A stretch of 64,000 bases of DNA from Crossaster papposus (lineage: Eukaryota; Echinodermata; Asteroidea; Velatida; Solasteridae): contig JBAIAA010000319.1 of the NCBI GenBank assembly GCA_037893245.1, positions 248,001 to 312,000 on the forward strand, given 5' to 3'. The stretch's first letter is position 1. Each line of letters begins with the position of its first letter. The position numbers and the translations under genes were made by a program. The notes under the pieces are model-generated. The model did not search any database. It saw only the letters and a list, made by a program, of their open reading frames with translations, and had not been told where the DNA came from. This document shows positions 23,859 through 63,305 of this stretch, piece by piece.

Positions 23859-23891
23859 TACAAACAAATTACTTGGCCTCCACAACCAAAA

Positions 23892-27492: not shown

Positions 27493-27493
27493 T

Positions 27494-28318: not shown

Positions 28319-28330
28319 CTTAACATTAGA

Positions 28331-28772: not shown

Positions 28773-28941
28773 GGGGCTTACCCCAAAAATTGTTGTAATG
28801 TAATTGTTGTAATGTAAATTGTTGTAATATAAATTGTTGTGTAATTGTTGGCGTTATGCGTTTTCCGGGGCGGTTGGCCGGGGTGCGGCAGCAGCGCCCA
28901 TGGTTTTGTTTGGGGGCAAACAAGGTCTTCGTGGGGGGCTG

Positions 28942-40093: not shown

Positions 40094-40871
40094 ATGAGCG
40101 TCATCATCTGTTGTTTTGTCAAATATTGCTTTCAGGTTGTGGCCAATTTGGCTGATTAACGATAAAACAACCAAATTACTGTGAAATCCCCCTGCTTGAC
40201 TATAAGTAACTATAACAGTCTCAAACATCCTGTGAAATCGCGGCACCTGGTGTGATGTCATTCTCAAGGAAAGTGAAATGTTTGTATTATATAGGTGATT
40301 CGCAGATATAGCCATCCAAAGTCAAAATATGGAGGGGTGGTCAATTTTAAGATTTTGCGCAATTTGGAAAACCTAAAGTCCTCCTCTACATATTTCCATT
40401 TTTTAGGTGCGATAATCGGGAATCTCTTAAATTACACTATTTTGCATAGTGTTTGCGCAGTTTAAGTGTTTGGATTAAAGTCCGTTATTGGTCTAATTAA
40501 CGCGGTAATCAAATTAGGTCCTCGTAACTATCTCACAGTCTCGAAATTTGGATATTTTGTTGTTTATGCAATAGTTTTGTATGTGTGGAAATTTTCAAAA
40601 AAAAATAATGATTAGAACAGAGCTGTTGCTATGCTCAACCAAACCTTACTTGTCCTGTTTTACAATCTTTTGCGTGTTTTGTGGACATCTAATCCAAATC
40701 AATTTCTGCTTATTAGATTCTTATTTAAACTTTTTTTTGTTTTAATTTTTCAAGAAGGACCTTTTAGAAGTATGATAAAGAACTGTTCCATTATTTGTTC
40801 AATGTTGGTTTCTATCCAAATCATCATTTAAATTGTTTTTCTTTCATTTTTCTGATATTGTCGTACAACAG
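40094..40871. other. intron 15; holds the parental copy of the macrosatellite spacer's left end
   Basis: Bases 40715-40771 are nearly identical (57 bp) to the first 57 bases of every 686-bp spacer in the array 6-20 kb downstream. No coding signal. Confidence 0.6.
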
Positions 40872-41070
40872 TTTCTACTGCCTGCCAGAGAATAAAACAG
40901 TCGGGAACCCAGACCTACAGCCAGGCATCACTGACTGCCCTGCTGGTTACTTTTGCACCAATGGCACCGGTCTAGATTGGAGTACCTTCCCAGCCGGTAC
41001 ATACAGTAACCAGACCAACTCGTACAATGTAACAGTGACTAACATGTCTGTCCAATATCACCCCTGTTAA
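40872..41070 (+). pseudogene. GCC gene exon 16 (3' border uncertain)
   Basis: After ACAACAG reads FYCLPENKTVGNPD, CPAGYFCTNGTGLDW, PAGTYSNQTNSYNVT and ends HPC, stop TAA at 41068. It enters in phase 2, fitting GG| of exon 15. I see no convincing donor; a phase-2 exit at about 41069 would fit exon 17. The TAA may belong to the intron. Usual module length suggests little is missing. Confidence 0.6.
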
Positions 41071-41181
41071 TCCAGTTGAAAGTTTTTTAGTATTCCTACT
41101 TTTTCTACTTGTTCTATCTTGCTCCTATTTTTCTCCTATTTTTCGTGCTATGTGACCGGTCACTCTCCCTATTATCCACAC

Positions 41182-41395
41182 TTAAAGGTATAATACACCA
41201 TTGGTAACTGCTTGAATTATCAGGAATGGGTGGATTTGGGGGAGTTGGTTGTATTTTATAGTAAATATATCGTTTAACTGACCTGTCCGAAGTTTTACAA
41301 TCATGGATGCTGAGAAAAGAGCAAGGAAAATGGCGTTCGTTTTCAACTGGCGTTGGGCAGTTGTTCGTTTTGTTCTTGTTCTTGTAATCCTGCCA
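41182..41395. mobile_element. TTAA MITE family 1, copy 3 (3' truncated)
   Basis: TTAA at 41182 then AGGTATAATACACCATTGG; matches copies 1 and 2 as far as GGCAGTTGTTCG and is then lost. A fragment like the end of family 2 (GGCTCGAATTGGTTAA, about 41421) abuts it. Confidence 0.7.
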
Positions 41396-42265
41396 GTGGT
41401 CTCGTTAACTTGAAATAATCCGGCTCGAATTGGTTAAACATGCACATTTTATCTAATATCGACATTTTATAGAGTCCGACATTCACGCTACACAGGATCA
41501 TACTGATCGTTATCTGGATTGTTAAGGCTAAAACAAACGGCCCTAATATATGATTGTATAACTTGTCTCATTTGAAAACTTGAAGTCCAATTGCAATCAA
41601 ACTTGGGTCATAGATGCAATATGGAAACAGCCATGTGGGGGTCACATGCTGAGTGAAAAAGGTCATTGAGGTCAAGTAGTAAAATAGAGATATCGCGAAA
41701 ATCATTGTTCGAGAACCACCTTGTCTCATTTTAGTAACCAATATCAGGCATGAGAATTCCCCGCCGTTCCGCGGTTTCCCGCTTTTTGGAGGCCAAAATA
41801 TGTCCTCTCCGAGTTTAATGTGAATCCGGTTTAAAATTGGGGGGGGTAGAGTTGGTCTAGGGTGATTTTTTTTTAAAGAGAAATTGTGGAAATATCATTG
41901 CTGCAATGCCCCGAGATCGGCACTTTTAAATGCGCACGTGATTTCACGCAACGATCGGCACACAGCCTGCGGTAAACGTACATGTACATAATGATGATTT
42001 AGCACTCAGCAGCGCTGCATGACATGTACAATAGCGATAAACAGCTGTCCTGTGGACTTTTTCTAAACGTTTTTTTCGTCTACGTTCCGGCTTCATGCAA
42101 TTCACCATCCGAACTACACAGTGAGGAGCATTCAAAACGACTAGAAAAAAGACTAGGGGGTGTCGCAATTGAGCAATTAGGAATACCCCTCTCTGGGTGC
42201 GATCGCTGCATGTGTATGATACTGCAGTGATACATGTATCGGCAAAGTAAACCTCATGCGATATT
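41396..42265. other. intron 16 upstream of the macrosatellite; one dispersed repeat copy
   Basis: Bases about 41566-41735 are the best copy of the AGGTCA-containing dispersed repeat (ACTTGTCTCATTTGAAAACTT ... GGTCATAGATGCAATATGG ... AGGTCAAGTAGTAAAATAG). The rest is featureless. Confidence 0.5.
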
Positions 42266-42834
42266 GTGACGATCCCCTACATATATACAGCGTTTGGAAA
42301 TGCTGTTGCTGATTGAGCGGCCATCGTGTTAACGCTTATTTGTGTACGTGAAAGAAAAACAGTTATAGTAAAATTATCGTGAAATATCGGAGGCATCCGA
42401 CTTCAAAATGCCGAGATTTTTGGATAGAAATGAAGAACACTTCATACGGGAGTCGGATAAAGGTGTCAACAAAAAATGGAAGTGGTCTTGGTTAGAGGCC
42501 GATGTGGATATTAAACTGCCTGGTAAACGTATTATTGCCGATAAAGTAAAGTGCAATCTCGGCGAGTTCGCCAGAAAGGTAGATATACCAGGGAAGTCGA
42601 TGTGCACGCTTTGCAATAAACTGATCAACTATGGAAATCGCGGGAAAAGTGCACTAAAAGCTCATGTTACCACAGCGGAACATGTAAATCTAGTGAAGAT
42701 AAGAAGGACAAATTATGTCATTTTGATACAGTTTGTATTTTAGTACTTGAGACTGAGGTGAATCAGAATGATATTGGCTTTTGTTATTGTTTAAAATCAA
42801 AATTCTCAAAATCTTCTCAAGAAATAAGAAATAA
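42266..42834. repeat. founder copy of the macrosatellite spacer (no tail)
   Basis: From GTGACGATCCCC at 42266 to CAAGAAATAAG at 42826 this matches the 686-bp spacers. It has normal single-copy DNA on its left and lacks their last 68 bases (TTTTGTTTACCC...AACAT). Private bases: TATATACAGCG, ACTTGAGACTGAGG, ATCTTCTCAAG. These identify it as the ancestral or outermost copy. Confidence 0.8.
42408..42743 (+). CDS. 111-residue zinc-finger ORF, founder copy (hAT-like N-terminus)
   Basis: Starts MPRFLDRNEEHFIRESDKG after an ATG in the context CAAAATGCC. Residues about 64-92 form a C2H2-type finger, SMCTLCNKLINYG ... LKAHVTTAEH (C-x2-C, H-x5-H spacing). I know similar short fingers at the N-termini of hAT-like transposases and related host proteins. 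A basic KWKWSW stretch precedes it. A GTAAAT right after GAACAT (codon 92) could be a splice donor, so this may be a first coding exon whose partner is lost. The ORF end (VILIQFVF) looks like intron read-through. Expression is unknown. Protein function beyond nucleic-acid binding cannot be inferred. Confidence 0.55.
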   Translation: MPRFLDRNEEHFIRESDKGVNKKWKWSWLEADVDIKLPGKRIIADKVKCNLGEFARKVDIPGKSMCTLCNKLINYGNRGKSALKAHVTTAEHVNLVKIRRTNYVILIQFVF

Positions 42835-45800
42835 GGTCCATCTCCGGTCCATCTCCGGTCCATCTCCGGTCCATCTCCGGTCCATCTCCGGTCCATCTCC
42901 GGTCCATCTCCGGTCCATCTCCGGTCCATCTCCGGTCCATCTCCGGTCCATCTCCGGTCCATCTCCGGTCCATCTCCGGTCCATCTCCGGTCCATCTCCG
43001 GTCCATCTCCGGTCCATCTCCGGTCCATCTCCGGTCCATCTCCGGTCCATCTCCGGTCCATCTCCGGTCCATCTCCGGTCCATCTCCGGTCCATCTCCGG
43101 TCCATCTCCGGTCCATCTCCGGTCCATCTCCGGTCCATCTCCGGTCCATCTCCGGTCCATCTCCGGTCCATCTCCGGTCCATCTCCGGTCCATCTCCGGT
43201 CCATCTCCGGTCCATCTCCGGTCCATCTCCGGTCCATCTCCGGTCCATCCCCGGTCCATCCCCGGTCCATCCCCGGTCCATCCCCGGTCCATCCCCGGTC
43301 CATCCCCGGTCCATCCCCGGTCCATCCCCGGTCCATCCCCGGTCCATCCCCGGTCCATCCCCGGTCCATCCCCGGTCCATCCCCGGTCCATCCCCGGTCC
43401 ATCCCCGGTCCATCCCCGGTCCATCCCCGGTCCATCCCCGGTCCATCCCCGGTCCATCCCCGGTCCATCCCCGGTCCATCCCCGGTCCATCCCCGGTCCA
43501 TCCCCGGTCCATCCCCGGTCCATCCCCGGTCCATCCCCGGTCCATCCCCGGTCCATCCCCGGTCCATCCCCGGTCCATCCCCGGTCCATCCCCGGTCCAT
43601 CCCCGGTCCATCCCCGGTCCATCCCCGGTCCATCCCCGGTCCATCCCCGGTCCATCCCCGGTCCATCCCCGGTCCATCCCCGGTCCATCCCCGGTCCATC
43701 CCCGGTCCATCCCCGGTCCATCCCCGGTCCATCCCCGGTCCATCCCCGGTCCATCCCCGGTCCATCCCCGGTCCATCCCCGGTCCATCCCCGGTCCATCC
43801 CCGGTCCATCCCCGGTCCATCCCCGGTCCATCCCCGGTCCATCCCCGGTCCATCCCCGGTCCATCCCCGGTCCATCCCCGGTCCATCCCCGGTCCATCCC
43901 CGGTCCATCCCCGGTCCATCCCCGGTCCATCCCCGGTCCATCCCCGGTCCATCCCCGGTCCATCCCCGGTCCATCCCCGGTCCATCCCCGGTCCATCCCC
44001 GGTCCATCCCCGGTCCATCCCCGGTCCATCCCCGGTCCATCCCCGGTCCATCCCCGGTCCATCCCCGGTCCATCCCCGGTCCATCCCCGGTCCATCCCCG
44101 GTCCATCCCCGGTCCATCCCCGGTCCATCCCCGGTCCATCCCCGGTCCATCCCCGGTCCATCCCCGGTCCATCCCCGGTCCATCCCCGGTCCATCCCCGG
44201 TCCATCCCCGGTCCATCCCCGGTCCATCCCCGGTCCATCCCCGGTCCATCCCCGGTCCATCCCCGGTCCATCCCCGGTCCATCCCCGGTCCATCCCCGGT
44301 CCATCCCCGGTCCATCCCCGGTCCATCCCCGGTCCATCCCCGGTCCATCCCCGGTCCATCCCCGGTCCATCCCCGGTCCATCCCCGGTCCATCCCCGGTC
44401 CATCCCCGGTCCATCCCCGGTCCATCCCCGGTCCATCCCCGGTCCATCCCCGGTCCATCCCCGGTCCATCCCCGGTCCATCCCCGGTCCATCCCCGGTCC
44501 ATCCCCGGTCCATCCCCGGTCCATCCCCGGTCCATCCCCGGTCCATCCCCGGTCCATCCCCGGTCCATCCCCGGTCCATCCCCGGTCCATCCCCGGTCCA
44601 TCCCCGGTCCATCCCCGGTCCATCCCCGGTCCATCCCCGGTCCATCCCCGGTCCATCCCCGGTCCATCCCCGGTCCATCCCCGGTCCATCCCCGGTCCAT
44701 CCCCGGTCCATCCCCGGTCCATCCCCGGTCCATCCCCGGTCCATCCCCGGTCCATCCCCGGTCCATCCCCGGTCCATCCCCGGTCCATCCCCGGTCCATC
44801 CCCGGTCCATCCCCGGTCCATCCCCGGTCCATCCCCGGTCCATCCCCGGTCCATCCCCGGTCCATCCCCGGTCCATCCCCGGTCCATCCCCGGTCCATCC
44901 CCGGTCCATCCCCGGTCCATCCCCGGTCCATCCCCGGTCCATCCCCGGTCCATCCCCGGTCCATCCCCGGTCCATCCCCGGTCCATCCCCGGTCCATCCC
45001 CGGTCCATCCCCGGTCCATCCCCGGTCCATCCCCGGTCCATCCCCGGTCCATCCCCGGTCCATCCCCGGTCCATCCCCGGTCCATCCCCGGTCCATCCCC
45101 GGTCCATCCCCGGTCCATCCCCGGTCCATCCCCGGTCCATCCCCGGTCCATCCCCGGTCCATCCCCGGTCCATCCCCGGTCCATCCCCGGTCCATCCCCG
45201 GTCCATCCCCGGTCCATCCCCGGTCCATCCCCGGTCCATCCCCGGTCCATCCCCGGTCCATCCCCGGTCCATCCCCGGTCCATCCCCGGTCCATCCCCGG
45301 TCCATCCCCGGTCCATCCCCGGTCCATCCCCGGTCCATCCCCGGTCCATCCCCGGTCCATCCCCGGTCCATCCCCGGTCCATCCCCGGTCCATCCCCGGT
45401 CCATCCCCGGTCCATCCCCGGTCCATCCCCGGTCCATCCCCGGTCCATCCCCGGTCCATCCCCGGTCCATCCCCGGTCCATCCCCGGTCCATCCCCGGTC
45501 CATCCCCGGTCCATCCCCGGTCCATCCCCGGTCCATCCCCGGTCCATCCCCGGTCCATCCCCGGTCCATCCCCGGTCCATCCCCGGTCCATCCCCGGTCC
45601 ATCCCCGGTCCATCCCCGGTCCATCCCCGGTCCATCCCCGGTCCATCCCCGGTCCATCCCCGGTCCATCCCCGGTCCATCCCCGGTCCATCCCCGGTCCA
45701 TCCCCGGTCCATCCCCGGTCCATCCCCGGTCCATCCCCGGTCCATCCCCGGTCCATCCCCGGTCCATCCCCGGTCCATCCCCGGTCCATCCCCGGTCCAT

Positions 45801-46877
45801 CCCCGGTCCATCCCCGGTCCATCCCCGGTCCATCCCCGGTCCATCCCCGGTCCATCCCCGGTCCATCCCCGGTCCATCCCCGGTCCATCCCCGGTCCATC
45901 CCCGGTCCATCCCCGGTCCATCCCCGGTCCATCCCCGGTCCATCCCCGGTCCATCCCCGGTCCATCCCCGGTCCATCCCCGGTCCATCCCCGGTCCATCC
46001 CCGGTCCATCCCCGGTCCATCCCCGGTCCATCCCCGGTCCATCCCCGGTCCATCCCCGGTCCATCCCCGGTCCATCCCCGGTCCATCCCCGGTCCATCCC
46101 CGGTCCATCCCCGGTCCATCCCCGGTCCATCCCCGGTCCATCCCCGGTCCATCCCCGGTCCATCCCCGGTCCATCCCCGGTCCATCCCCGGTCCATCCCC
46201 GGTCCATCCCCGGTCCATCCCCGGTCCATCCCCGGTCCATCCCCGGTCCATCCCCGGTCCATCCCCGGTCCATCCCCGGTCCATCCCCGGTCCATCCCCG
46301 GTCCATCCCCGGTCCATCCCCGGTCCATCCCCGGTCCATCCCCGGTCCATCCCCGGTCCATCCCCGGTCCATCCCCGGTCCATCCCCGGTCCATCCCCGG
46401 TCCATCCCCGGTCCATCCCCGGTCCATCCCCGGTCCATCCCCGGTCCATCCCCGGTCCATCCCCGGTCCATCCCCGGTCCATCCCCGGTCCATCCCCGGT
46501 CCATCCCCGGTCCATCCCCGGTCCATCCCCGGTCCATCCCCGGTCCATCCCCGGTCCATCCCCGGTCCATCCCCGGTCCATCCCCGGTCCATCCCCGGTC
46601 CATCCCCGGTCCATCCCCGGTCCATCCCCGGTCCATCCCCGGTCCATCCCCGGTCCATCCCCGGTCCATCCCCGGTCCATCCCCGGTCCATCCCCGGTCC
46701 ATCCCCGGTCCATCCCCGGTCCATCCCCGGTCCATCCCCGGTCCATCCCCGGTCCATCCCCGGTCCATCCCCGGTCCATCCCCGGTCCATCCCCGGTCCA
46801 TCCCCGGTCCATCCCCGGTCCATCCCCGGTCCATCCCCGGTCCATCCCCGGTCCATCCCCGGTCCATCCCCGGTCCA
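42835..46877. repeat. 11-bp minisatellite array 1 (about 367 units)
   Basis: The first about 37 units (42835-43243) are GGTCCATCTCC; the remaining about 330 are GGTCCATCCCC without visible exception. Because 11 is prime to 3 and no stop occurs, several reading frames stay open for over 1,300 codons on both strands. They encode 11-residue repeats such as IPGPSPVHPRS and are not considered genes. Confidence 0.97.
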
Positions 46878-47563
46878 GATTCTTATTTAAACTTGTTTTT
46901 GTTTTAATTTTTCAAGAAGGACCTTTTAGAAGTGACGATCCCCTACATATATATAGCGTTTGGAAATGCTGTTGCTGATTGAGCGGCCATCGTGTTAACG
47001 CTTATTTGTGTACGTGAAAGAAAAACAGTTATAGTAAAATTATCGTGAAATATCGGAGGCATCCGACTTCAAAATGCCGAGATTTTTGGATAGAAATGAA
47101 GAACACTTCATACGGGAGTCGGATAAAGGTGTCAACAAAAAATGGAAGTGGTCTTGGTTAGAGGCCGATGTGGATATTAAACTGCCTGGTAAACGTATTA
47201 TTGCCGATAAAGTAAAGTGCAATCTCGGCGAGTTCGCCAGAAAGGTAGATATACCAGGGAAGTCGATGTGCACGCTTTGCAATAAACTGATCAACTATGG
47301 AAATCGCGGGAAAAGTGCACTAAAAGCTCATGTTACCACAGCGGAACATGTAAATCTAGTGAAGATAAGAAGGACAAATTATGTCATTTTGATACAGTTT
47401 GTATTTTAGTACTTGAGTCTGAGGTGAATCAGAATGATATTGGCTTTTGTTATTGTTTAAAATCAAAATTCTCAAAATCTTTTCAAGAAATAAGTTTTGT
47501 TTACCCATTCATTTAAAAACTGCTATTAAAGCTCGCAAGGTTTGGTTAAAAGTAATATACAAC
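46878..47563. repeat. macrosatellite spacer 1 (686 bp)
   Basis: Begins GATTCTTATTTAAACTTG, contains the zinc-finger ORF and ends TATACAAC before CATCCCC. Joins a 40715-like 57-bp piece to the 42266-like body at a GT dinucleotide, then adds a 68-bp tail not seen elsewhere in the window. Confidence 0.95.
47074..47409 (+). CDS. zinc-finger ORF, copy 2
   Basis: Protein identical to the founder copy, in spacer 1. Confidence 0.5.
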   Translation: MPRFLDRNEEHFIRESDKGVNKKWKWSWLEADVDIKLPGKRIIADKVKCNLGEFARKVDIPGKSMCTLCNKLINYGNRGKSALKAHVTTAEHVNLVKIRRTNYVILIQFVF

Positions 47564-48202
47564 ATCCCCGGTCCATCCCCGGTCCATCCCCGGTCCATCC
47601 CCGGTCCATCCCCGGTCCATCCCCGGTCCATCCCCGGTCCATCCCCGGTCCATCCCCGGTCCATCCCCGGTCCATCCCCGGTCCATCCCCGGTCCATCCC
47701 CGGTCCATCCCCGGTCCATCCCCGGTCCATCCCCGGTCCATCCCCGGTCCATCCCCGGTCCATCCCCGGTCCATCCCCGGTCCATCCCCGGTCCATCCCC
47801 GGTCCATCCCCGGTCCATCCCCGGTCCATCCCCGGTCCATCCCCGGTCCATCCCCGGTCCATCCCCGGTCCATCCCCGGTCCATCCCCGGTCCATCCCCG
47901 GTCCATCCCCGGTCCATCCCCGGTCCATCCCCGGTCCATCCCCGGTCCATCCCCGGTCCATCCCCGGTCCATCCCCGGTCCATCCCCGGTCCATCCCCGG
48001 TCCATCCCCGGTCCATCCCCGGTCCATCCCCGGTCCATCCCCGGTCCATCCCCGGTCCATCCCCGGTCCATCCCCGGTCCATCCCCGGTCCATCCCCGGT
48101 CCATCCCCGGTCCATCCCCGGTCCATCCCCGGTCCATCCCCGGTCCATCCCCGGTCCATCCCCGGTCCATCCCCGGTCCATCCCCGGTCCATCCCCGGTC
48201 CA
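47564..48202. repeat. 11-bp array 2 (about 58 units)
   Basis: All units of the CCCC type. Confidence 0.97.
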
Positions 48203-48888
48203 GATTCTTATTTAAACTTGTTTTTGTTTTAATTTTTCAAGAAGGACCTTTTAGAAGTGACGATCCCCTACATATATATAGCGTTTGGAAATGCTGTTGC
48301 TGATTGAGCGGCCATCGTGTTAACGCTTATTTGTGTACGTGAAAGAAAAACAGTTATAGTAAAATTATCGTGAAATATCGGAGGCATCCGACTTCAAAAT
48401 GCCGAGATTTTTGGATAGAAATGAAGAACACTTCATACGGGAGTCGGATAAAGGTGTCAACAAAAAATGGAAGTGGTCTTGGTTAGAGGCCGATGTGGAT
48501 ATTAAACTGCCTGGTAAACGTATTATTGCCGATAAAGTAAAGTGCAATCTCGGCGAGTTCGCCAGAAAGGTAGATATACCAGGGAAGTCGATGTGCACGC
48601 TTTGCAATAAACTGATCAACTATGGAAATCGCGGGAAAAGTGCACTAAAAGCTCATGTTACCACAGCGGAACATGTAAATCTAGTGAAGATAAGAAGGAC
48701 AAATTATGTCATTTTGATACAGTTTGTATTTTAGTACTTGAGTCTGAGGTGAATCAGAATGATATTGGCTTTTGTTATTGTTTAAAATCAAAATTCTCAA
48801 AATCTTTTCAAGAAATAAGTTTTGTTTACCCATTCATTTAAAAACTGCTATTAAAGCTCGCAAGGTTTGGTTAAAAGTAATATACAAC
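48203..48888. repeat. macrosatellite spacer 2 (686 bp), ORF at 48399-48734
   Basis: Same as spacer 1; ORF copy 3 is identical in protein. Confidence 0.95.
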
Positions 48889-49901
48889 ATCCCCGGTCCA
48901 TCCCCGGTCCATCCCCGGTCCATCCCCGGTCCATCCCCGGTCCATCCCCGGTCCATCCCCGGTCCATCCCCGGTCCATCCCCGGTCCATCCCCGGTCCAT
49001 CCCCGGTCCATCCCCGGTCCATCCCCGGTCCATCCCCGGTCCATCCCCGGTCCATCCCCGGTCCATCCCCGGTCCATCCCCGGTCCATCCCCGGTCCATC
49101 CCCGGTCCATCCCCGGTCCATCCCCGGTCCATCCCCGGTCCATCCCCGGTCCATCCCCGGTCCATCCCCGGTCCATCCCCGGTCCATCCCCGGTCCATCC
49201 CCGGTCCATCCCCGGTCCATCCCCGGTCCATCCCCGGTCCATCCCCGGTCCATCCCCGGTCCATCCCCGGTCCATCCCCGGTCCATCCCCGGTCCATCCC
49301 CGGTCCATCCCCGGTCCATCCCCGGTCCATCCCCGGTCCATCCCCGGTCCATCCCCGGTCCATCCCCGGTCCATCCCCGGTCCATCCCCGGTCCATCCCC
49401 GGTCCATCCCCGGTCCATCCCCGGTCCATCCCCGGTCCATCCCCGGTCCATCCCCGGTCCATCCCCGGTCCATCCCCGGTCCATCCCCGGTCCATCCCCG
49501 GTCCATCCCCGGTCCATCCCCGGTCCATCCCCGGTCCATCCCCGGTCCATCCCCGGTCCATCCCCGGTCCATCCCCGGTCCATCCCCGGTCCATCCCCGG
49601 TCCATCCCCGGTCCATCCCCGGTCCATCCCCGGTCCATCCCCGGTCCATCCCCGGTCCATCCCCGGTCCATCCCCGGTCCATCCCCGGTCCATCCCCGGT
49701 CCATCCCCGGTCCATCCCCGGTCCATCCCCGGTCCATCCCCGGTCCATCCCCGGTCCATCCCCGGTCCATCCCCGGTCCATCCCCGGTCCATCCCCGGTC
49801 CATCCCCGGTCCATCCCCGGTCCATCCCCGGTCCATCCCCGGTCCATCCCCGGTCCATCCCCGGTCCATCCCCGGTCCATCCCCGGTCCATCCCCGGTCC
49901 A
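48889..49901. repeat. 11-bp array 3 (about 92 units)
   Basis: Length 1,013 bp, the same as array 9. Confidence 0.97.
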
Positions 49902-50587
49902 GATTCTTATTTAAACTTGTTTTTGTTTTAATTTTTCAAGAAGGACCTTTTAGAAGTGACGATCCCCTACATATATATAGCGTTTGGAAATGCTGTTGCT
50001 GATTGAGCGGCCATCGTGTTAACGCTTATTGGTGTACGTGAAAGAAAAACAGTTATAGTAAAATTATCGTGAAATATCGGAGGCATCCGACTTCAAAATG
50101 CCGAGATTTTTGGATAGAAATGAAGAACACTTCATACGGGAGTCGGATAAAGGTGTCAACAAAAAATGGAAGTGGTCTTGGTTAGAGGCCGATGTGGATA
50201 TTAAACTGCCTGGTAAACGTATTATTGCCGATAAAGTAAAGTGCAATCTCGGCGAGTTCGCCAGAAAGGTAGATATACCAGGGAAGTCGATGTGCACGCT
50301 TTGCAATAAACTGATCAACTATGGAAATCGCGGGAAAAGTGCACTAAAAGCTCATGTTACCACAGCGGAACATGTAAATCTAGTGAAGATAAGAAGGACA
50401 AATTATGTCATTTTGATACAGTTTGTATTTTAGTACTTGAGTCTGAGGTGAATCAGAATGATATTGGCTTTTGTTATTGTTTAAAATCAAAATTCTCAAA
50501 ATCTTTTCAAGAAATAAGTTTTGTTTACCCATTCATTTAAAAACTGCTATTAAAGCTCGCAAGGTTTGGTTAAAAGTAATATACAAC
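49902..50587. repeat. macrosatellite spacer 3 (686 bp), ORF at 50098-50433
   Basis: Private variant CTTATTGGTGTACG (others TTTGTG), shared only with spacer 7. Confidence 0.95.
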
Positions 50588-51435
50588 ATCCCCGGTCCAT
50601 CCCCGGTCCATCCCCGGTCCATCCCCGGTCCATCCCCGGTCCATCCCCGGTCCATCCCCGGTCCATCCCCGGTCCATCCCCGGTCCATCCCCGGTCCATC
50701 CCCGGTCCATCCCCGGTCCATCCCCGGTCCATCCCCGGTCCATCCCCGGTCCATCCCCGGTCCATCCCCGGTCCATCCCCGGTCCATCCCCGGTCCATCC
50801 CCGGTCCATCCCCGGTCCATCCCCGGTCCATCCCCGGTCCATCCCCGGTCCATCCCCGGTCCATCCCCGGTCCATCCCCGGTCCATCCCCGGTCCATCCC
50901 CGGTCCATCCCCGGTCCATCCCCGGTCCATCCCCGGTCCATCCCCGGTCCATCCCCGGTCCATCCCCGGTCCATCCCCGGTCCATCCCCGGTCCATCCCC
51001 GGTCCATCCCCGGTCCATCCCCGGTCCATCCCCGGTCCATCCCCGGTCCATCCCCGGTCCATCCCCGGTCCATCCCCGGTCCATCCCCGGTCCATCCCCG
51101 GTCCATCCCCGGTCCATCCCCGGTCCATCCCCGGTCCATCCCCGGTCCATCCCCGGTCCATCCCCGGTCCATCCCCGGTCCATCCCCGGTCCATCCCCGG
51201 TCCATCCCCGGTCCATCCCCGGTCCATCCCCGGTCCATCCCCGGTCCATCCCCGGTCCATCCCCGGTCCATCCCCGGTCCATCCCCGGTCCATCCCCGGT
51301 CCATCCCCGGTCCATCCCCGGTCCATCCCCGGTCCATCCCCGGTCCATCCCCGGTCCATCCCCGGTCCATCCCCGGTCCATCCCCGGTCCATCCCCGGTC
51401 CATCCCCGGTCCATCCCCGGTCCATCCCCGGTCCA
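50588..51435. repeat. 11-bp array 4 (about 77 units)
   Basis: Homogeneous CCCC type. Confidence 0.97.
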
Positions 51436-52121
51436 GATTCTTATTTAAACTTGTTTTTGTTTTAATTTTTCAAGAAGGACCTTTTAGAAGTGACGATCCC
51501 CTACATATATATAGCGTTTGGAAATGCTGTTGCTGATTGAGCGGCCATCGTGTTAACGCTTATTTGTGTACGTGAAAGAAAAACAGTTATAGTAAAATTA
51601 TCGTGAAATATCGGAGGCATCCGACTTCAAAATGCCGAGATTTTTGGATAGAAATGAAGAACACTTCATACGGGAGTCGGATAAAGGTGTCAACAAAAAA
51701 TGGAAGTGGTCTTGGTTAGAGGCCGATGTGGATATTAAACTGCCTGGTAAACGTATTATTGCCGATAAAGTAAAGTGCAATCTCGGCGAGTTCGCCAGAA
51801 AGGTAGATATACCAGGGAAGTCGATGTGCACGCTTTGCAATAAACTGATCAACTATGGAAATCGCGGGAAAAGTGCACTAAAAGCTCATGTTACCACAGC
51901 GGAACATGTAAATCTAGTGAAGATAAGAAGGACAAATTATGTCATTTTGATACAGTTTGTATTTTAGTACTTGAGTCTGAGGTGAATCAGAATGATATTG
52001 GCTTTTGTTATTGTTTAAAATCAAAATTCTCAAAATCTTTTCAAGAAATAAGTTTTGTTTACCCATTCATTTAAAAACTGCTATTAAAGCTCGCAAGGTT
52101 TGGTTAAAAGTAATATACAAC
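51436..52121. repeat. macrosatellite spacer 4 (686 bp), ORF at 51632-51967
   Basis: No private variant noticed. Confidence 0.95.
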
Positions 52122-52892
52122 ATCCCCGGTCCATCCCCGGTCCATCCCCGGTCCATCCCCGGTCCATCCCCGGTCCATCCCCGGTCCATCCCCGGTCCAT
52201 CCCCGGTCCATCCCCGGTCCATCCCCGGTCCATCCCCGGTCCATCCCCGGTCCATCCCCGGTCCATCCCCGGTCCATCCCCGGTCCATCCCCGGTCCATC
52301 CCCGGTCCATCCCCGGTCCATCCCCGGTCCATCCCCGGTCCATCCCCGGTCCATCCCCGGTCCATCCCCGGTCCATCCCCGGTCCATCCCCGGTCCATCC
52401 CCGGTCCATCCCCGGTCCATCCCCGGTCCATCCCCGGTCCATCCCCGGTCCATCCCCGGTCCATCCCCGGTCCATCCCCGGTCCATCCCCGGTCCATCCC
52501 CGGTCCATCCCCGGTCCATCCCCGGTCCATCCCCGGTCCATCCCCGGTCCATCCCCGGTCCATCCCCGGTCCATCCCCGGTCCATCCCCGGTCCATCCCC
52601 GGTCCATCCCCGGTCCATCCCCGGTCCATCCCCGGTCCATCCCCGGTCCATCCCCGGTCCATCCCCGGTCCATCCCCGGTCCATCCCCGGTCCATCCCCG
52701 GTCCATCCCCGGTCCATCCCCGGTCCATCCCCGGTCCATCCCCGGTCCATCCCCGGTCCATCCCCGGTCCATCCCCGGTCCATCCCCGGTCCATCCCCGG
52801 TCCATCCCCGGTCCATCCCCGGTCCATCCCCGGTCCATCCCCGGTCCATCCCCGGTCCATCCCCGGTCCATCCCCGGTCCATCCCCGGTCCA
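52122..52892. repeat. 11-bp array 5 (about 70 units)
   Basis: Homogeneous CCCC type. Confidence 0.97.
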
Positions 52893-53898
52893 GATTCTTA
52901 TTTAAACTTGTTTTTGTTTTAATTTTTCAAGAAGGACCTTTTAGAAGTGACGATCCCCTACATATATATAGCGTTTGGAAATGCTGTTGCTGATTGAGCG
53001 GCCATCGTGTTAACGCTTATTTGTGTACGTGAAAGAAAAACAGTTATAGTAAAATTATCGTGAAATATCGGAGGCATCCGACTTCAAAATGCCGAGATTT
53101 TTGGATAGAAATGAAGAACACTTCATACGGGAGTCGGATAAAGGTGTCAACAAAAAATGGAAGTGGTCTTGGTTAGAGGCCGATGTGGATATTAAACTGC
53201 CTGGTAAACGTATTATTGCCGATAAAGTAAAGTGCAATCTCGGCGAGTTCGCCAGAAAGGTAGATATACCAGGGAAGTCGATGTGCACGCTTTGCAATAA
53301 ACTGATCAACTATGGAAATCGCGGGAAAAGTGCACTAAAAGCTCATGTTACCACAGCGGAACATGTAAATCTAGTGAAGATAAGAAGGACAAATTATGTC
53401 ATTTTGATACAGTTTGTATTTTAGTACTTGAGTCTGAGGTGAATCAGAATGATATTGGCTTTTGTTATTGTTTAAAATCAAAATTCTCAAAATCTTTTCA
53501 AGAAATAAGTTTTGTTTACCCATTCATTTAAAAACTGCTATTAAAGCTCAAGTGCAATCTCGGCGAGTTCGCCAGAAAGGTAGATATACCAGGGAAGTCG
53601 ATGTGCACGCTTTGCAATAAACTGATCAACTATGGAAATCGCGGGAAAAGTGCACTAAAAGCTCATGTTACCACAGCGGAACATGTAAATCTAGTGAAGA
53701 TAAGAAGGACAAATTATGTCATTTTGATACAGTTTGTATTTTAGTACTTGAGTCTGAGGTGAATCAGAATGATATTGGCTTTTGTTATTGTTTAAAATCA
53801 AAATTCTCAAAATCTTCTCAAGAAATAAGTTTTGTTTACCCATTCATTTAAAAACTGCTATTAAAGCTCGCAAGGTTTGGTTAAAAGTAATATACAAC
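52893..53898. repeat. macrosatellite spacer 5 (1,006 bp) with internal 320-bp duplication
   Basis: Full ORF at 53089-53424. Bases 53231-53550 are repeated as 53551-53870, so a second, N-terminally truncated ORF copy follows. The duplicate carries ATCTTCTCAAG, a variant otherwise seen only in the founder at 42811. Confidence 0.95.
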
Positions 53899-54955
53899 AT
53901 CCCCGGTCCATCCCCGGTCCATCCCCGGTCCATTCCCGGTCCATCCCCGGTCCATCCCCGGTCCATCCCCGGTCCATCCCCGGTCCATCCCCGGTCCATC
54001 CCCGGTCCATCCCCGGTCCATCCCCGGTCCATCCCCGGTCCATCCCCGGTCCATCCCCGGTCCATCCCCGGTCCATCCCCGGTCCATCCCCGGTCCATCC
54101 CCGGTCCATCCCCGGTCCATCCCCGGTCCATCCCCGGTCCATCCCCGGTCCATCCCCGGTCCATCCCCGGTCCATCCCCGGTCCATCCCCGGTCCATCCC
54201 CGGTCCATCCCCGGTCCATCCCCGGTCCATCCCCGGTCCATCCCCGGTCCATCCCCGGTCCATCCCCGGTCCATCCCCGGTCCATCCCCGGTCCATCCCC
54301 GGTCCATCCCCGGTCCATCCCCGGTCCATCCCCGGTCCATCCCCGGTCCATCCCCGGTCCATCCCCGGTCCATCCCCGGTCCATCCCCGGTCCATCCCCG
54401 GTCCATCCCCGGTCCATCCCCGGTCCATCCCCGGTCCATCCCCGGTCCATCCCCGGTCCATCCCCGGTCCATCCCCGGTCCATCCCCGGTCCATCCCCGG
54501 TCCATCCCCGGTCCATCCCCGGTCCATCCCCGGTCCATCCCCGGTCCATCCCCGGTCCATCCCCGGTCCATCCCCGGTCCATCCCCGGTCCATCCCCGGT
54601 CCATCCCCGGTCCATCCCCGGTCCATCCCCGGTCCATCCCCGGTCCATCCCCGGTCCATCCCCGGTCCATCCCCGGTCCATCCCCGGTCCATCCCCGGTC
54701 CATCCCCGGTCCATCCCCGGTCCATCCCCGGTCCATCCCCGGTCCATCCCCGGTCCATCCCCGGTCCATCCCCGGTCCATCCCCGGTCCATCCCCGGTCC
54801 ATCCCCGGTCCATCCCCGGTCCATCCCCGGTCCATCCCCGGTCCATCCCCGGTCCATCCCCGGTCCATCCCCGGTCCATCCCCGGTCCATCCCCGGTCCA
54901 TCCCCGGTCCATCCCCGGTCCATCCCCGGTCCATCCCCGGTCCATCCCCGGTCCA
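53899..54955. repeat. 11-bp array 6 (about 96 units)
   Basis: One variant unit (CATTCCCGG at about 53931) near the left edge, shared with array 7. Confidence 0.97.
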
Positions 54956-55641
54956 GATTCTTATTTAAACTTTTTTTTGTTTTAATTTTTCAAGAAGGAC
55001 CTTTTAGAAGTGACGATCCCCTACATATATATAGCGTTTGGAAATGCTGTTGCTGATTGAGCGGCCATCGTGTTAACGCTTATTTGTGTACGTGAAAGAA
55101 AAACAGTTATAGTAAAATTATCGTGAAATATCGGAGGCATCCGACTTCAAAATGCCGAGATTTTTGGATAGAAATGAAGAACACTTCATACGGGAGTCGG
55201 ATAAAGGTGTCAACAAAAAATGGAAGTGGTCTTGGTTAGAGGCCGATGTGGATATTAAACTGCCTGGTAAACGTATTATTGCCGATAAAGTAAAGTGCAA
55301 TCTCGGCGAGTTCGCCAGAAAGGTAGATATACCAGGGAAGTCGATGTGCACGCTTTGCAATAAACTGATCAACTATGGAAATCGCGGGAAAAGTGCACTA
55401 AAAGCTCATGTTACCACAGCGGAACATGTAAATCTAGTGAAGATAAGAAGGACAAATTATGTCATTTTGATACAGTTTGTATTTTAGTACTTGAGTCTGA
55501 GGTGAATCAGAATGATATTGGCTTTTGTTATTGTTTAAAATCAAAATTCTCAAAATCTTTTCAAGAAATAAGTTTTGTTTACCCATTCATTTAAAAACTG
55601 CTATTAAAGCTCGCAAGGTTTGGTTAAAAGTAATATACAAC
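54956..55641. repeat. macrosatellite spacer 6 (686 bp), ORF at 55152-55487
   Basis: Has AAACTTTTTTTTG, like 40721-40739, where other spacers have AAACTTGTTTTTG. Confidence 0.95.
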
Positions 55642-56577
55642 ATCCCCGGTCCATCCCCGGTCCATCCCCGGTCCATTCCCGGTCCATCCCCGGTCCATCC
55701 CCGGTCCATCCCCGGTCCATCCCCGGTCCATCCCCGGTCCATCCCCGGTCCATCCCCGGTCCATCCCCGGTCCATCCCCGGTCCATCCCCGGTCCATCCC
55801 CGGTCCATCCCCGGTCCATCCCCGGTCCATCCCCGGTCCATCCCCGGTCCATCCCCGGTCCATCCCCGGTCCATCCCCGGTCCATCCCCGGTCCATCCCC
55901 GGTCCATCCCCGGTCCATCCCCGGTCCATCCCCGGTCCATCCCCGGTCCATCCCCGGTCCATCCCCGGTCCATCCCCGGTCCATCCCCGGTCCATCCCCG
56001 GTCCATCCCCGGTCCATCCCCGGTCCATCCCCGGTCCATCCCCGGTCCATCCCCGGTCCATCCCCGGTCCATCCCCGGTCCATCCCCGGTCCATCCCCGG
56101 TCCATCCCCGGTCCATCCCCGGTCCATCCCCGGTCCATCCCCGGTCCATCCCCGGTCCATCCCCGGTCCATCCCCGGTCCATCCCCGGTCCATCCCCGGT
56201 CCATCCCCGGTCCATCCCCGGTCCATCCCCGGTCCATCCCCGGTCCATCCCCGGTCCATCCCCGGTCCATCCCCGGTCCATCCCCGGTCCATCCCCGGTC
56301 CATCCCCGGTCCATCCCCGGTCCATCCCCGGTCCATCCCCGGTCCATCCCCGGTCCATCCCCGGTCCATCCCCGGTCCATCCCCGGTCCATCCCCGGTCC
56401 ATCCCCGGTCCATCCCCGGTCCATCCCCGGTCCATCCCCGGTCCATCCCCGGTCCATCCCCGGTCCATCCCCGGTCCATCCCCGGTCCATCCCCGGTCCA
56501 TCCCCGGTCCATCCCCGGTCCATCCCCGGTCCATCCCCGGTCCATCCCCGGTCCATCCCCGGTCCATCCCCGGTCCA
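55642..56577. repeat. 11-bp array 7 (about 85 units)
   Basis: Same CATTCCCGG variant at the same distance from the left edge as array 6. Confidence 0.97.
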
Positions 56578-57263
56578 GATTCTTATTTAAACTTGTTTTT
56601 GTTTTAATTTTTCAAGAAGGACCTTTTAGAAGTGACGATCCCCTACATATATATAGCGTTTGGAAATGCTGTTGCTGATTGAGCGGCCATCGTGTTAACG
56701 CTTATTGGTGTACGTGAAAGAAAAACAGTTATAGTAAAATTATCGTGAAATATCGGAGGCATCCGACTTCAAAATGCCGAGATTTTTGGATAGAAATGAA
56801 GAACACTTCATACGGGAGTCGGATAAAGGTGTCAACAAAAAATGGAAGTGGTCTTGGTTAGAGGCCGATGTGGATATTAAACTGCCTGGTAAACGTATTA
56901 TTGCCGATAAAGTAAAGTGCAATCTCGGCGAGTTCGCCAGAAAGGTAGATATACCAGGGAAGTCGATGTGCACGCTTTGCAATAAACTGATCAACTATGG
57001 AAATCGCGGGAAAAGTGCACTAAAAGCTCATGTTACCACAGCGGAACATGTAAATCTAGTGAAGATAAGAAGGACAAATTATGTCATTTTGATACAGTTT
57101 GTATTTTAGTACTTGAGTCTGAGGTGAATCAGAATGATATTGGCTTTTGTTATTGTTTAAAATCAAAATTCTCAAAATCTTTTCAAGAAATAAGTTTTGT
57201 TTACCCATTCATTTAAAAACTGCTATTAAAGCTCGCAAGGTTTGGTTAAAAGTAATATACAAC
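56578..57263. repeat. macrosatellite spacer 7 (686 bp), ORF at 56774-57109
   Basis: Shares CTTATTGGTGTACG with spacer 3. Confidence 0.95.
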
Positions 57264-57858
57264 ATCCCCGGTCCATCCCCGGTCCATCCCCGGTCCATCC
57301 CCGGTCCATCCCCGGTCCATCCCCGGTCCATCCCCGGTCCATCCCCGGTCCATCCCCGGTCCATCCCCGGTCCATCCCCGGTCCATCCCCGGTCCATCCC
57401 CGGTCCATCCCCGGTCCATCCCCGGTCCATCCCCGGTCCATCCCCGGTCCATCCCCGGTCCATCCCCGGTCCATCCCCGGTCCATCCCCGGTCCATCCCC
57501 GGTCCATCCCCGGTCCATCCCCGGTCCATCCCCGGTCCATCCCCGGTCCATCCCCGGTCCATCCCCGGTCCATCCCCGGTCCATCCCCGGTCCATCCCCG
57601 GTCCATCCCCGGTCCATCCCCGGTCCATCCCCGGTCCATCCCCGGTCCATCCCCGGTCCATCCCCGGTCCATCCCCGGTCCATCCCCGGTCCATCCCCGG
57701 TCCATCCCCGGTCCATCCCCGGTCCATCCCCGGTCCATCCCCGGTCCATCCCCGGTCCATCCCCGGTCCATCCCCGGTCCATCCCCGGTCCATCCCCGGT
57801 CCATCCCCGGTCCATCCCCGGTCCATCCCCGGTCCATCCCCGGTCCATCCCCGGTCCA
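57264..57858. repeat. 11-bp array 8 (about 54 units)
   Basis: Shortest array. Confidence 0.97.
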
Positions 57859-58544
57859 GATTCTTATTTAAACTTGTTTTTGTTTTAATTTTTCAAGAAG
57901 GACCTTTTAGAAGTGACGATCCCCTACATATATATAGCGTTTGGAAATGCTGTTGCTGATTGAGCGGCCATCGTGTTAACGCTTATTTGTGTACGTGAAA
58001 GAAAAACAGTTATAGTAAAATTATCGTGAAATATCGGAGGCATCCGACTTCAAAATGCCGAGATTTTTGGATAGAAATGAAGAACACTTCATACGGGAGT
58101 CGGATAAAGGTGTCAACAAAAAATGGAAGTGGTCTTGGTTAGAGGCCGATGTGGATATTAAACTGCCTGGTAAACGTATTATTGCCGATAAAGTAAAGTG
58201 CAATCTCGGCGAGTTCGCCAGAAAGGTAGATATACCAGGGAAGTCGATGTGCACGCTTTGCAATAAACTGATCAACTATGGAAATCGCGGGAAAAGTGCA
58301 CTAAAAGCTCATGTTACCACAGCGGAACATGTAAATCTAGTGAAGATAAGAAGGACAAATTATGTCATTTTGATACAGTTTGTATTTTAGTACTTGAGTC
58401 TGAGGTGAATCAGAATGATATTGGCTTTTGTTATTGTTTAAAATCAAAATTCTCAAAATCTTTTCAAGAAATAAGTTTTGTTTACCCATTCATTTAAAAA
58501 CTGCTATTAAAGCTCGCAAGGTTTGGTTAAAAGTAATATACAAC
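57859..58544. repeat. macrosatellite spacer 8 (686 bp), ORF at 58055-58390
   Basis: No private variant noticed. Confidence 0.95.
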
Positions 58545-59557
58545 ATCCCCGGTCCATCCCCGGTCCATCCCCGGTCCATCCCCGGTCCATCCCCGGTCCA
58601 TCCCCGGTCCATCCCCGGTCCATCCCCGGTCCATCCCCGGTCCATCCCCGGTCCATCCCCGGTCCATCCCCGGTCCATCCCCGGTCCATCCCCGGTCCAT
58701 CCCCGGTCCATCCCCGGTCCATCCCCGGTCCATCCCCGGTCCATCCCCGGTCCATCCCCGGTCCATCCCCGGTCCATCCCCGGTCCATCCCCGGTCCATC
58801 CCCGGTCCATCCCCGGTCCATCCCCGGTCCATCCCCGGTCCATCCCCGGTCCATCCCCGGTCCATCCCCGGTCCATCCCCGGTCCATCCCCGGTCCATCC
58901 CCGGTCCATCCCCGGTCCATCCCCGGTCCATCCCCGGTCCATCCCCGGTCCATCCCCGGTCCATCCCCGGTCCATCCCCGGTCCATCCCCGGTCCATCCC
59001 CGGTCCATCCCCGGTCCATCCCCGGTCCATCCCCGGTCCATCCCCGGTCCATCCCCGGTCCATCCCCGGTCCATCCCCGGTCCATCCCCGGTCCATCCCC
59101 GGTCCATCCCCGGTCCATCCCCGGTCCATCCCCGGTCCATCCCCGGTCCATCCCCGGTCCATCCCCGGTCCATCCCCGGTCCATCCCCGGTCCATCCCCG
59201 GTCCATCCCCGGTCCATCCCCGGTCCATCCCCGGTCCATCCCCGGTCCATCCCCGGTCCATCCCCGGTCCATCCCCGGTCCATCCCCGGTCCATCCCCGG
59301 TCCATCCCCGGTCCATCCCCGGTCCATCCCCGGTCCATCCCCGGTCCATCCCCGGTCCATCCCCGGTCCATCCCCGGTCCATCCCCGGTCCATCCCCGGT
59401 CCATCCCCGGTCCATCCCCGGTCCATCCCCGGTCCATCCCCGGTCCATCCCCGGTCCATCCCCGGTCCATCCCCGGTCCATCCCCGGTCCATCCCCGGTC
59501 CATCCCCGGTCCATCCCCGGTCCATCCCCGGTCCATCCCCGGTCCATCCCCGGTCCA
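58545..59557. repeat. 11-bp array 9 (about 92 units)
   Basis: 1,013 bp, equal to array 3. Confidence 0.97.
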
Positions 59558-60243
59558 GATTCTTATTTAAACTTGTTTTTGTTTTAATTTTTCAAGAAGG
59601 ACCTTTTAGAAGTGACGATCCCCTACATATATATAGCGTTTGGAAATGCTGTTGCTGATTGAGCGGCCATCGTGTTAACGCTTATTTGTGTACGTGAAAG
59701 AAAAACAGTTATAGTAAAATTATCGTGAAATATCGGAGGCATCCGACTTCAAAATGCCGAGATTTTTGGATAGAAATGAAGAACACTTCATACGGGAGTC
59801 GGATAAAGGTGTCAACAAAAAATGGAAGTGGTCTTGGTTAGAGGCCGATGTGGATATTAAACTGCCTGGTAAACGTATTATTGCCGATAAAGTAAAGTGC
59901 AATCTCGGCGAGTTCGCCAGAAAGGTAGATATACCAGGGAAGTCGATGTGCACGCTTTGCAATAAACTGATCAACTATGGAAATCGCGGGAAAAGTGCAC
60001 TAAAAGCTCATGTTACCACAGCGGAACATGTAAATCTAGTGAAGATAAGAAGGACAAATTATGTCATTTTGATACAGTTTGTATTTTAGTACTTGAGTCT
60101 GAGGTGAATCAGAATGATATTGGCTTTTGTTATTGTTTAAAATCAAAATTCTCAAAATCTTTTCAAGAAATAAGTTTTGTTTACCCATTCATTTAAAAAC
60201 TGCTATTAAAGCTCGCAAGGTTTGGTTAAAAGTAATATACAAC
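59558..60243. repeat. macrosatellite spacer 9 (686 bp), ORF at 59754-60089
   Basis: Last spacer; ORF copy 10 identical in protein. Confidence 0.95.
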
Positions 60244-61327
60244 ATCCCCGGTCCATCCCCGGTCCATCCCCGGTCCATCCCCGGTCCATCCCCGGTCCAT
60301 CCCCGGTCCATCCCCGGTCCATCCCCGGTCCATCCCCGGTCCATCCCCGGTCCATCCCCGGTCCATCCCCGGTCCATCCCCGGTCCATCCCCGGTCCATC
60401 CCCGGTCCATCCCCGGTCCATCCCCGGTCCATCCCCGGTCCATCCCCGGTCCATCCCCGGTCCATCCCCGGTCCATCCCCGGTCCATCCCCGGTCCATCC
60501 CCGGTCCATCCCCGGTCCATCCCCGGTCCATCCCCGGTCCATCCCCGGTCCATCCCCGGTCCATCCCCGGTCCATCCCCGGTCCATCCCCGGTCCATCCC
60601 CGGTCCATCCCCGGTCCATCCCCGGTCCATCCCCGGTCCATCCCCGGTCCATCCCCGGTCCATCCCCGGTCCATCCCCGGTCCATCCCCGGTCCATCCCC
60701 GGTCCATCCCCGGTCCATCCCCGGTCCATCCCCGGTCCATCCCCGGTCCATCCCCGGTCCATCCCCGGTCCATCCCCGGTCCATCCCCGGTCCATCCCCG
60801 GTCCATCCCCGGTCCATCCCCGGTCCATCCCCGGTCCATCCCCGGTCCATCCCCGGTCCATCCCCGGTCCATCCCCGGTCCATCCCCGGTCCATCCCCGG
60901 TCCATCCCCGGTCCATCCCCGGTCCATCCCCGGTCCATCCCCGGTCCATCCCCGGTCCATCCCCGGTCCATCCCCGGTCCATCCCCGGTCCATCCCCGGT
61001 CCATCCCCGGTCCATCCCCGGTCCATCCCCGGTCCATCCCCGGTCCATCCCCGGTCCATCCCCGGTCCATCCCCGGTCCATCCCCGGTCCATCCCCGGTC
61101 CATCCCCGGTCCATCCCCGGTCCATCCCCGGTCCATCCCCGGTCCATCCCCGGTCCATCCCCGGTCCATCCCCGGTCCATCCCCGGTCCATCCCCGGTCC
61201 ATCCCCGGTCCATCCCCGGTCCATCCCCGGTCCATCCCCGGTCCATCCCCGGTCCATCCCCGGTCCATCCCCGGTCCATCCCCGGTCCATCCCCGGTCCA
61301 TCCCCGGTCCATCCCCGGTCCATCCCC
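60244..61327. repeat. 11-bp array 10 (about 98 units), ends at exon 17
   Basis: The final CATCCCC runs into TCCTTTTCTCACAG, the polypyrimidine tract and acceptor of exon 17, only about 14 bases away. Confidence 0.97.
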
Positions 61328-61341
61328 TCCTTTTCTCACAG

Positions 61342-61520
61342 CGATGGTTGATATTGCATCCAAGGCGCTTCCAGCCCCACCCCAACAGACCTGTCCATCG
61401 GAGGTCGGTGCGCCCCAGGAGAGTACTGCCCAGGGGGTATTGAAAAGCCCATCCCCTGCGATCCCGGGTACTACTGTGAGAGGGCGGGGCTGGCCGTGCC
61501 TCACCTTGAATGCTCACAGG
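61342..61520 (+). pseudogene. GCC gene exon 17 (early TGA)
   Basis: Enters in phase 2: DG, TGA (61349-61351), YCIQGASSPTPTDLS, GGRCAPGEYCPGGIEKP, CDPGYYCERAGLAVPH, CSQG. The TGA stands where GWYC is expected, so TGG to TGA is likely. Exits in phase 1 at GTAAGT. Confidence 0.75.
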
Positions 61521-61649
61521 GTAAGTGGAAAAACATTTATGTTTGTAAAAGTGCCATGGTCTGTAACATTAAATTTATGATTTGCTGTAATTCTGCAAGT
61601 TGTGGATTAGAGCCCAGCCTGGGCTTGGAACTTCTCCTGATATGAGTAT

Positions 61650-62797: not shown

Positions 62798-63305
62798 GTT
62801 TTTACTGCACCTTGGAGGCATCTGTCAGCAACCCCACCGACAACGTGACGGGCAACGTCTGCCCTGTGGGTTCCTGAGAGCCCGCCCCTTGCCCGATTAG
62901 CTACTACTTCGACGCCACCGAGCAAAGCGCTAAAACCAGCTGCCAGATCTGCACCAAGGGGATGTACTGCCATCGTGAGGGTCTTCCCACCTCTACGTGT
63001 TTCTGCCAGAGGGGCTACTACTGCCAGATTACGGCCACCCCGGCCGACCACACCTGCCCCCAGGGTCACTTCTGTGGAGAGGAATATGGCGATCCGGAGC
63101 CCTGCCCGTCCGGCACCTACCAGGACACAGTGGGACAGTGGGACTGCAAGACCTGCCTTGCTGGGCATTACTATAATGCCACCGTCGGGCCCGTGGTGTG
63201 GTACGGATCCTACGTCTGCCCAAGTGGGTATTACTGCCTAAATGAGACAACGTACGCAGAGGAGTTTGCCTGCCCGTACGGAACATTCAACAACCTGACA
63301 ACCAG
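62798..63305 (+). pseudogene. GCC gene exon 18 (one TGA), longest exon
   Basis: 508 bases, entry phase 1, exit phase 2 (AG|GTGGGG). Reads GFYCTLEASVSNPTDN, CPVGS, TGA (62875-62877), EPAPCPISYYFDATEQ, CQICTKGMYCHREGL, CQRGYYCQITATPAD, CPQGHFCGEEYGDPEP, CPSGTYQDTVGQWD, CLAGHYYNATVGP, CPSGYYCLNETTYAEE, CPYGTFNNLTTR. Apart from the TGA it is open for 140 codons with modules in perfect register, so inactivation must be recent. The gene continues beyond this exon. Confidence 0.8.

Follow-up and report, generated by a model that had tools for sequence, protein, structure and literature searches.

The window analysed here, 64,000 bases of the Crossaster papposus genome (contig C319, positions 248001–312000), carries at 42266–61327 a composite block in which ten arrays of an 11-bp unit, GGTCCATCCCC, alternate with nine near-identical spacers. 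Having compared it with the animal's own genome (1.02 Gb, 1841 contigs), we give a probability of about 0.87 to the reading that the block arose as a complex tandem duplication, specific to this locus, in an intron belonging to one member of a multicopy gene family.

Direct comparison confirmed the layout given in the initial annotation, with ten arrays of 54–367 units, nine spacers and ten identical open reading frames (ORFs) of 111 codons. The lengths of 686 bp for eight spacers and 686 + 320 bp for a ninth needed a small correction. Eight spacers measure 685 bp (or 686, with one base of the array included) and the fifth 1005 bp, that is 685 + 320, the extra 320 bp being an internal tandem duplication. 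Together, the arrays make up 12,008 of the 19,062 bases, or ~1,092 units. The parts of the locus, all on the + strand, are:

40716–40769, +, host intron segment, source of the first 54 bp of every spacer (1/54 mismatch)
41745–42797, +, 5' part of a non-autonomous DNA transposon (hAT6-like), 3' half deleted; its CAGGCATGAGAAT start adjoins CAATAT
42266–42834, +, incomplete first copy of what became the tandem unit, still in its original setting
42408–42743, +, ORF of 111 amino acids with a BED/C2H2-like motif, CxxC...HxxxxxH, in its translation; transposon-derived
42835–46877, +, array 1, 367.5 units, the first 37 of them GGTCCATCTCC
46878–47562, +, spacer 1, 685 bp: 54 bp of intron, transposon piece and a 68-bp intron piece (47495–47562)
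47563–48202, +, array 2, 58 units
48203–48887, +, spacer 2, 685 bp
48888–49901, +, array 3, 92 units
49902–50586, +, spacer 3, 685 bp
50587–51435, +, array 4, 77 units
51436–52120, +, spacer 4, 685 bp
52121–52892, +, array 5, 70 units
52893–53897, +, spacer 5, 1005 bp, with the 320-bp internal tandem duplication
53898–54955, +, array 6, 96 units, one of them GGTCCATTCCC
54956–55640, +, spacer 6, 685 bp
55641–56577, +, array 7, 85 units, one of them GGTCCATTCCC
56578–57262, +, spacer 7, 685 bp
57263–57858, +, array 8, 54 units
57859–58543, +, spacer 8, 685 bp
58544–59557, +, array 9, 92 units
59558–60242, +, spacer 9, 685 bp
60243–61327, +, array 10, 98.6 units, its end abutting the polypyrimidine tract of the host intron
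61328–61522, +, original right flank, with TCCTTTTCTCACAG (resembling a splice acceptor) followed by the next exon of the host gene; the same sequence follows the arrays of paralogues L018 and L020

A block of such structure cannot be due to chance. Its nine complete units (a spacer with the following array), of 1.28–2.06 kb each, stand head to tail at one locus, as in a macrosatellite, which is defined by a head-to-tail kilobase-scale unit at a single locus. The eight 685-bp spacers vary at two positions only, 18 (in spacer 6) and 130 (in spacers 3 and 7), in keeping with the initial description of a spacer that is very young or homogenised and of array length as the variable part. Spacer 6 alone carries T at position 18, as the original intron does. 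Missing from the partial first copy are the initial 54 bp and the greater part of the intron piece that precedes the array; this copy differs from spacer 1 at two of the first 550 positions compared and at a third immediately upstream of the array, and none of these differences falls inside the ORF. Two stretches, 48203–49901 and 57859–59557, are identical over 1,699 bp, which adds little, most spacers being identical in any case. That arrays 3 and 9 are equally long (1,014 bp) was dropped as proof of a recent duplication; by our own estimate, for nine arrays within a narrow range, the match is likely to be a chance one.

Within each unit the order is intron 40716–40769, transposon from 42266 on, the 68-bp intron piece, and array. 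Against the common start of the spacers the intron source has one mismatch in 54 positions (T for G, position 18), and it lies 1.5 kb upstream of the transposon piece joined to it; the duplicates are without 40770–42265. Both joins show minimal homology, with 1 base shared where array meets intron (GGTCCA/GATTC) and 2 bases where intron meets transposon (AGAA/GT). Used as an exact 23-base word, the array/intron junction occurs nine times in the 1.02 Gb, all nine at this locus, with 0 control matches. The block is flanked on both sides by its own original flanks, as local tandem duplication predicts. These results suggest that the tandem duplication is young and confined to this locus.

A whole-genome search with one spacer gave 41 matches (best 40 of 409 candidates scored), and among the matches listed those away from the locus start at spacer position 55, not at 1. 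Twenty copies away from the locus were read (L018–L023 and L025–L038). The window's left flank before the transposon is shared by 17 of them (L018–L023, L026–L036), which are therefore duplicates of the region and not new insertions. In the six closest, L018–L023, the left flank and transposon piece are 99.1–99.6% identical to those of the window (L018 with one 137-bp gap) and an array follows; the other eleven flank-sharing copies are 94–97% identical to the flank, and L037 is without the transposon's left end. Four copies, L026 and L028–L030, show another order: complete transposon, CAATAT, an exon, the splice donor GTAAGC, an intron stretch ending TTTTGTTTACCC...ATACAA, and then the array. 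That same intron stretch is the 68-bp piece of the window's spacer 1. Over the 1.2 kb read past the transposon, no array was present in L025 and L038, which have different flanks on both sides; nor was there one within the fetched stretch of L033 and L035, both of which carry other insertions. Because an exon lies between array and complete transposon in paralogues, and because L025 and L038 are without an array, transposon and minisatellite are of separate origin, and the 11-bp array is an intron minisatellite of a multicopy gene.

The right side of the array was read in two of the six closest copies. L018 has a single array of 63 units and L020 one of 27, each followed by the window's right flank (96.7% identity over 570 positions and 99.2% over 1197, respectively). 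In the window and in both of these copies the array ends at TCCTTTTCTCACAG, which looks like a splice acceptor; an exon comes next. In the older copies L027 (after 2937) and L036 (after 3082), numbered on the transposon's strand, the array gives way to an intron stretch and an exon that differ from these. The window and L018–L023 have lost the 3' half of the transposon together with the adjacent exon, a deletion common to this sub-branch. The minisatellite was thus rearranged at both of its boundaries between sub-branches.

As for the host gene, five exon-like frames were scanned: one matches Ephrin_rec_like (PF07699, E 4.8e-6), and four give no match above cut-off. A 38-base array word, counted over the whole genome and not per gene family, occurs 4904 times forward and 4535 times in reverse (0 control matches), and the first 56 bases of the spacer recur at 100% identity at 30 places off the locus and at 98% at one more (best 40 of 142 candidates). 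This intron start recurs on contigs C375, C733, C453, C418 and C183, with 13 occurrences on C375 that lie ~110–270 kb apart. The spacing on C375 points to what would be a very large, partly tandem gene family. A TGA stands in the cysteine-rich frame of two exon-like stretches in the window, at 61349–61351 and 62875–62877, the first also in L018 and L020; the host gene copy in the window may be a pseudogene.

The insertions elsewhere, L025 and L038, align with the window from base 41745 onward only, which therefore marks the left end of the transposon. Complete copies, ~1.4 kb in those read, end in ATTCTCATGCCTG and have perfect 13-bp terminal inverted repeats, CAGGCATGAGAAT. Both ends were visible in 11 of 14 examined copies, and all 11 have 6-bp target duplications, which trace to three insertion events: TACCTA (L025), CTAGTA (L038) and CAATAT (nine gene-family copies). 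Genome-wide there are 239 exact CAGGCATGAGAAT ends, a number that overstates the insertions, many ends being in gene duplicates; among 100 listed of the 239, paired ends lie ~0.5, 0.7, 1.4 or 7 kb apart, with a few other distances. L041 holds part of a diverged copy. L039 (C750:303123–310922) carries at ~997–6660 a transposon at the gene-family site with a further insertion whose inverted halves, 1.59 kb, are 98.5% identical; it is the sole ~7-kb copy read, and a ~7-kb spacing of terminal repeats is seen again in C156, C233, C390 and others.

By its termini and 6-bp duplications alone, the transposon may be classed as hAT6-like. Terminal repeats that start with CAG and a BED-like finger are in line with hAT. 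No related autonomous element with a hAT transposase stood out in the best 40 of 1075 candidates or in the 100 listed of 239 terminal-repeat matches, and no transposase-family search was made. Two other kinds of transposon do not fit. IS3EU requires termini TAYGG..CCRTA with a 6-bp duplication, as a passage of PMC12730594 defines them for fungal families, and the termini here are CAGGCATGAG. Dada elements, as described in part of PMC3706591, make 6–7 bp duplications and insert in small RNA genes, their U6 and U1 families being without terminal inverted repeats; the perfect terminal inverted repeats do not match Dada, the insertion sites not having been screened for RNA genes.

We propose the following history, its steps taken from a comparison of the copies. 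A gene family first carried an 11-bp minisatellite in an intron, upstream of which a ~1.4-kb non-autonomous, ORF-bearing transposon (hAT6-like) inserted with a CAATAT target duplication. In the sub-branch formed by the window and six copies, a deletion of the transposon's 3' half, the next exon and its splice donor then fused the transposon to the minisatellite, and in the same sub-branch the array abuts another splice acceptor than in the two older copies. At this locus only, the segment running from intron 40716 to the array was joined head to tail to the array, both joins presumably being made by end-joining or template switching at 1 and 2 bp of homology. The rise to ten arrays may have proceeded by unequal exchange or conversion, with homologous arrays aiding misalignment, while array lengths would have drifted by slippage and the zinc-finger ORF would have been carried along as a passenger. 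Unequal exchange, which the initial annotation had put forward, is a good account of the expansion.

Several points weigh against a local duplication of this kind. Contig C319 (318,341 bp) ends ~9 kb past the last array, and units identical over 1,699 bp are what an assembly loop could also give. L019 and L021–L023 were fetched into the first array only, and their single state rests on the exact-match junction search. The 1.5-kb deletion is ordered relative to the first duplication by deduction, because all nine spacers share it. The right boundary of the minisatellite is rearranged too, as L027 and L036 indicate. Finally, an extrachromosomal circle, or a rolling-circle element, could have served to copy the unit before a tandem block of copies was put back into the chromosome; head-to-tail units with one common junction are the product expected of a circle. 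Original flanks on both sides, however, are predicted by simple local duplication and not by reinsertion elsewhere. The element moreover has terminal inverted repeats and target duplications, in which Helitrons are unlike it; no search for Helitron ends was made. We regard amplification through a circle as quite improbable.

A single composite unit, or fewer copies than ten, might also have been expanded by a loop in the assembly graph. To the contig end and the 1,699-bp identity this account can add the near-identical spacers and the many near-identical paralogues. Against it, the arrays differ in length, variants (two of the spacer and one of the array) are unevenly spread, one spacer holds the 320-bp duplication, and the exact junction occurs at no other locus. 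The uneven array lengths, the 320-bp duplication and the uneven placing of the spacer variants argue for a real block, and we see little chance that it is an artefact.

The ORF starts at 42408, 47074, 48399, 50098, 51632, 53089, 55152, 56774, 58055 and 59754, and its ten translations are identical. It matches Pfam zf-BED weakly (E 0.073, 13.6 bits, under the cut-off of 20.6) and has at least 151 matches genome-wide, the window's own included. A single-sequence structure model was uninformative (mean predicted local distance difference test score, pLDDT, 37.8), and a search of solved structures gave two matches, E 1.4 and 1.9, neither of them relevant. The initial annotation saw a conserved zinc finger in the ten identical copies, but that identity is accounted for, because recent duplication gives it; identical ORFs within a young tandem array are no evidence of selection. 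In the other copies read, the ORF is free of stops and frameshifts in 12 of 20 and interrupted in eight (L018, L020, L021, L022, L027, L036, L037 and L038); a stop at codon 15 is common to four of the closest six.

We examined constraint across 19 gene-family copies, including the window's first and leaving out L025, L038 and the spacer row. They show 8 synonymous vs 29 non-synonymous changes, counted as variable sites and not as independent events on a tree, mostly among gene duplicates. The expected synonymous share is 0.21 or 0.27 under two weightings (p 0.84 and 0.58), and variable sites number 11, 12 and 13 of 111 at codon positions 1, 2 and 3, with 14 of 199 in the flank. This comparison concerns the time after insertion, not that within an active transposon. 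The changes match chance and the ORF looks unconstrained, so that selection on the protein, for which the synonymous/non-synonymous comparison had been proposed, finds no support. Taken together, the reading of these copies suggests that the zinc-finger ORF is a transposon leftover and a passenger.

The same evidence bears on a selfish satellite, in which the zinc-finger protein would bind the 11-bp array and drive or maintain its amplification, as the initial annotation had ventured. The ORF is indeed intact and identical in ten copies, always beside an array at this locus, resembles zf-BED weakly and is uninterrupted in the 12 copies just mentioned. However, transposon and array are of separate origin, an exon parting them in paralogues and L025 and L038 being without an array over the 1.2 kb read past the transposon; arrays persist in the four close paralogues with the stop at codon 15; and 8 synonymous vs 29 non-synonymous changes give no sign of protein-coding constraint. 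We consider this account hardly credible. Scarcely better placed is the idea that transposon and array move as one composite with the array as cargo: the array word is frequent genome-wide and several copies have both side by side, but 17 of the 20 copies read are gene duplicates by their shared left flank, L025 and L038 with other flanks lack the array, and the terminal repeats enclose the transposon without it; among the six closest copies, this covers the right flank of two.

Local tandem duplication thus remains the preferred reading, and it allows one further conjecture. The intron minisatellite could be a hotspot of breakage and exchange that seeds duplication at two scales, units of 1.3–2 kb here and gene-family copies of 110–270 kb; we think this unlikely. 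The array boundaries rearranged on both sides between sub-branches would fit such a hotspot. If it were true, the family would amplify via a recombination seed in its own intron, and the window would hold a freshly started secondary amplification.

Elsewhere in the window, a perfect 17-bp minisatellite of 26 copies (28330–28776) lies between identical 288-bp direct repeats (27205–27492 and 28942–29229); the whole, 27205–29229, may be the outcome of the same process with two units. Adjoining 8-bp minisatellites, GGATGATG and CTGATTCC, occupy 17869–19297, the GGATGATG one with a longer-period repeat of ~285 bp (17824–18397 vs 18106–18687, 98%). At 23292–23932 there is a histone H2A ORF with a histone 3' stem-loop downstream. 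Close together, at 30649–31767 and 32853–34097, lie an ORF with DDE_Tnp_4 and HTH_Tnp_4 and, on the opposite strand, one with a YqaJ-like recombinase domain; they may belong to a single transposon or to two.

The locus offers a near-unmutated snapshot of the birth of a composite satellite: the ingredients (intron, transposon and minisatellite), both joins and the unduplicated paralogous state can be read in one genome, and the steps can therefore be dated and ordered. The initial annotation knew of no satellite with this two-level structure and an embedded, conserved zinc-finger ORF; satellites with an embedded ORF do have precedents. In the human macrosatellites RS447 and D4Z4, head-to-tail kilobase units carry an ORF in each monomer (described in part of PMC3018141), and the block resembles them in both respects; it differs in having nine complete units only, in a length that varies widely through an internal minisatellite, and in an ORF that appears to be a transposon relic without sign of constraint. 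The 6-bp target duplications are shared with hAT6, a name given in a passage of PMC12730594 to hAT elements with such duplications, whereas here no transposase was found (no transposase-family search was made), complete copies are ~1.4 kb and listed end pairs lie ~0.5 to 7 kb apart. Like GC-rich hypervariable minisatellites, the array has a short, GC-rich, strand-asymmetric unit and copy-to-copy length variation, and, except in the 37 T-type units, it fits the G3N1-7 G-quadruplex rule on the minus strand. Its loops are of 7 nt, and of the CEB25 variants in yeast those with short-loop quadruplexes alone gave instability (as a passage of PMC5491262 has it). The motif alone was seen and such loops make a quadruplex cause of instability doubtful; we do not rely on it. 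Tandem repeats born from transposons have been reviewed, with unequal exchange and end-joining among the mechanisms (in parts of PMC9659126 and PMC6947457). Here, too, a tandem repeat took up a portion of a non-autonomous DNA transposon, but in this unit the portion is combined with a minisatellite of the intron, unrelated to it, and with an intron segment moved from its place. The locus is a transposon-containing tandem duplication at a minisatellite, a young case of a known phenomenon, whose two levels of repetition with readable ancestral states are instructive and would not greatly surprise a specialist.

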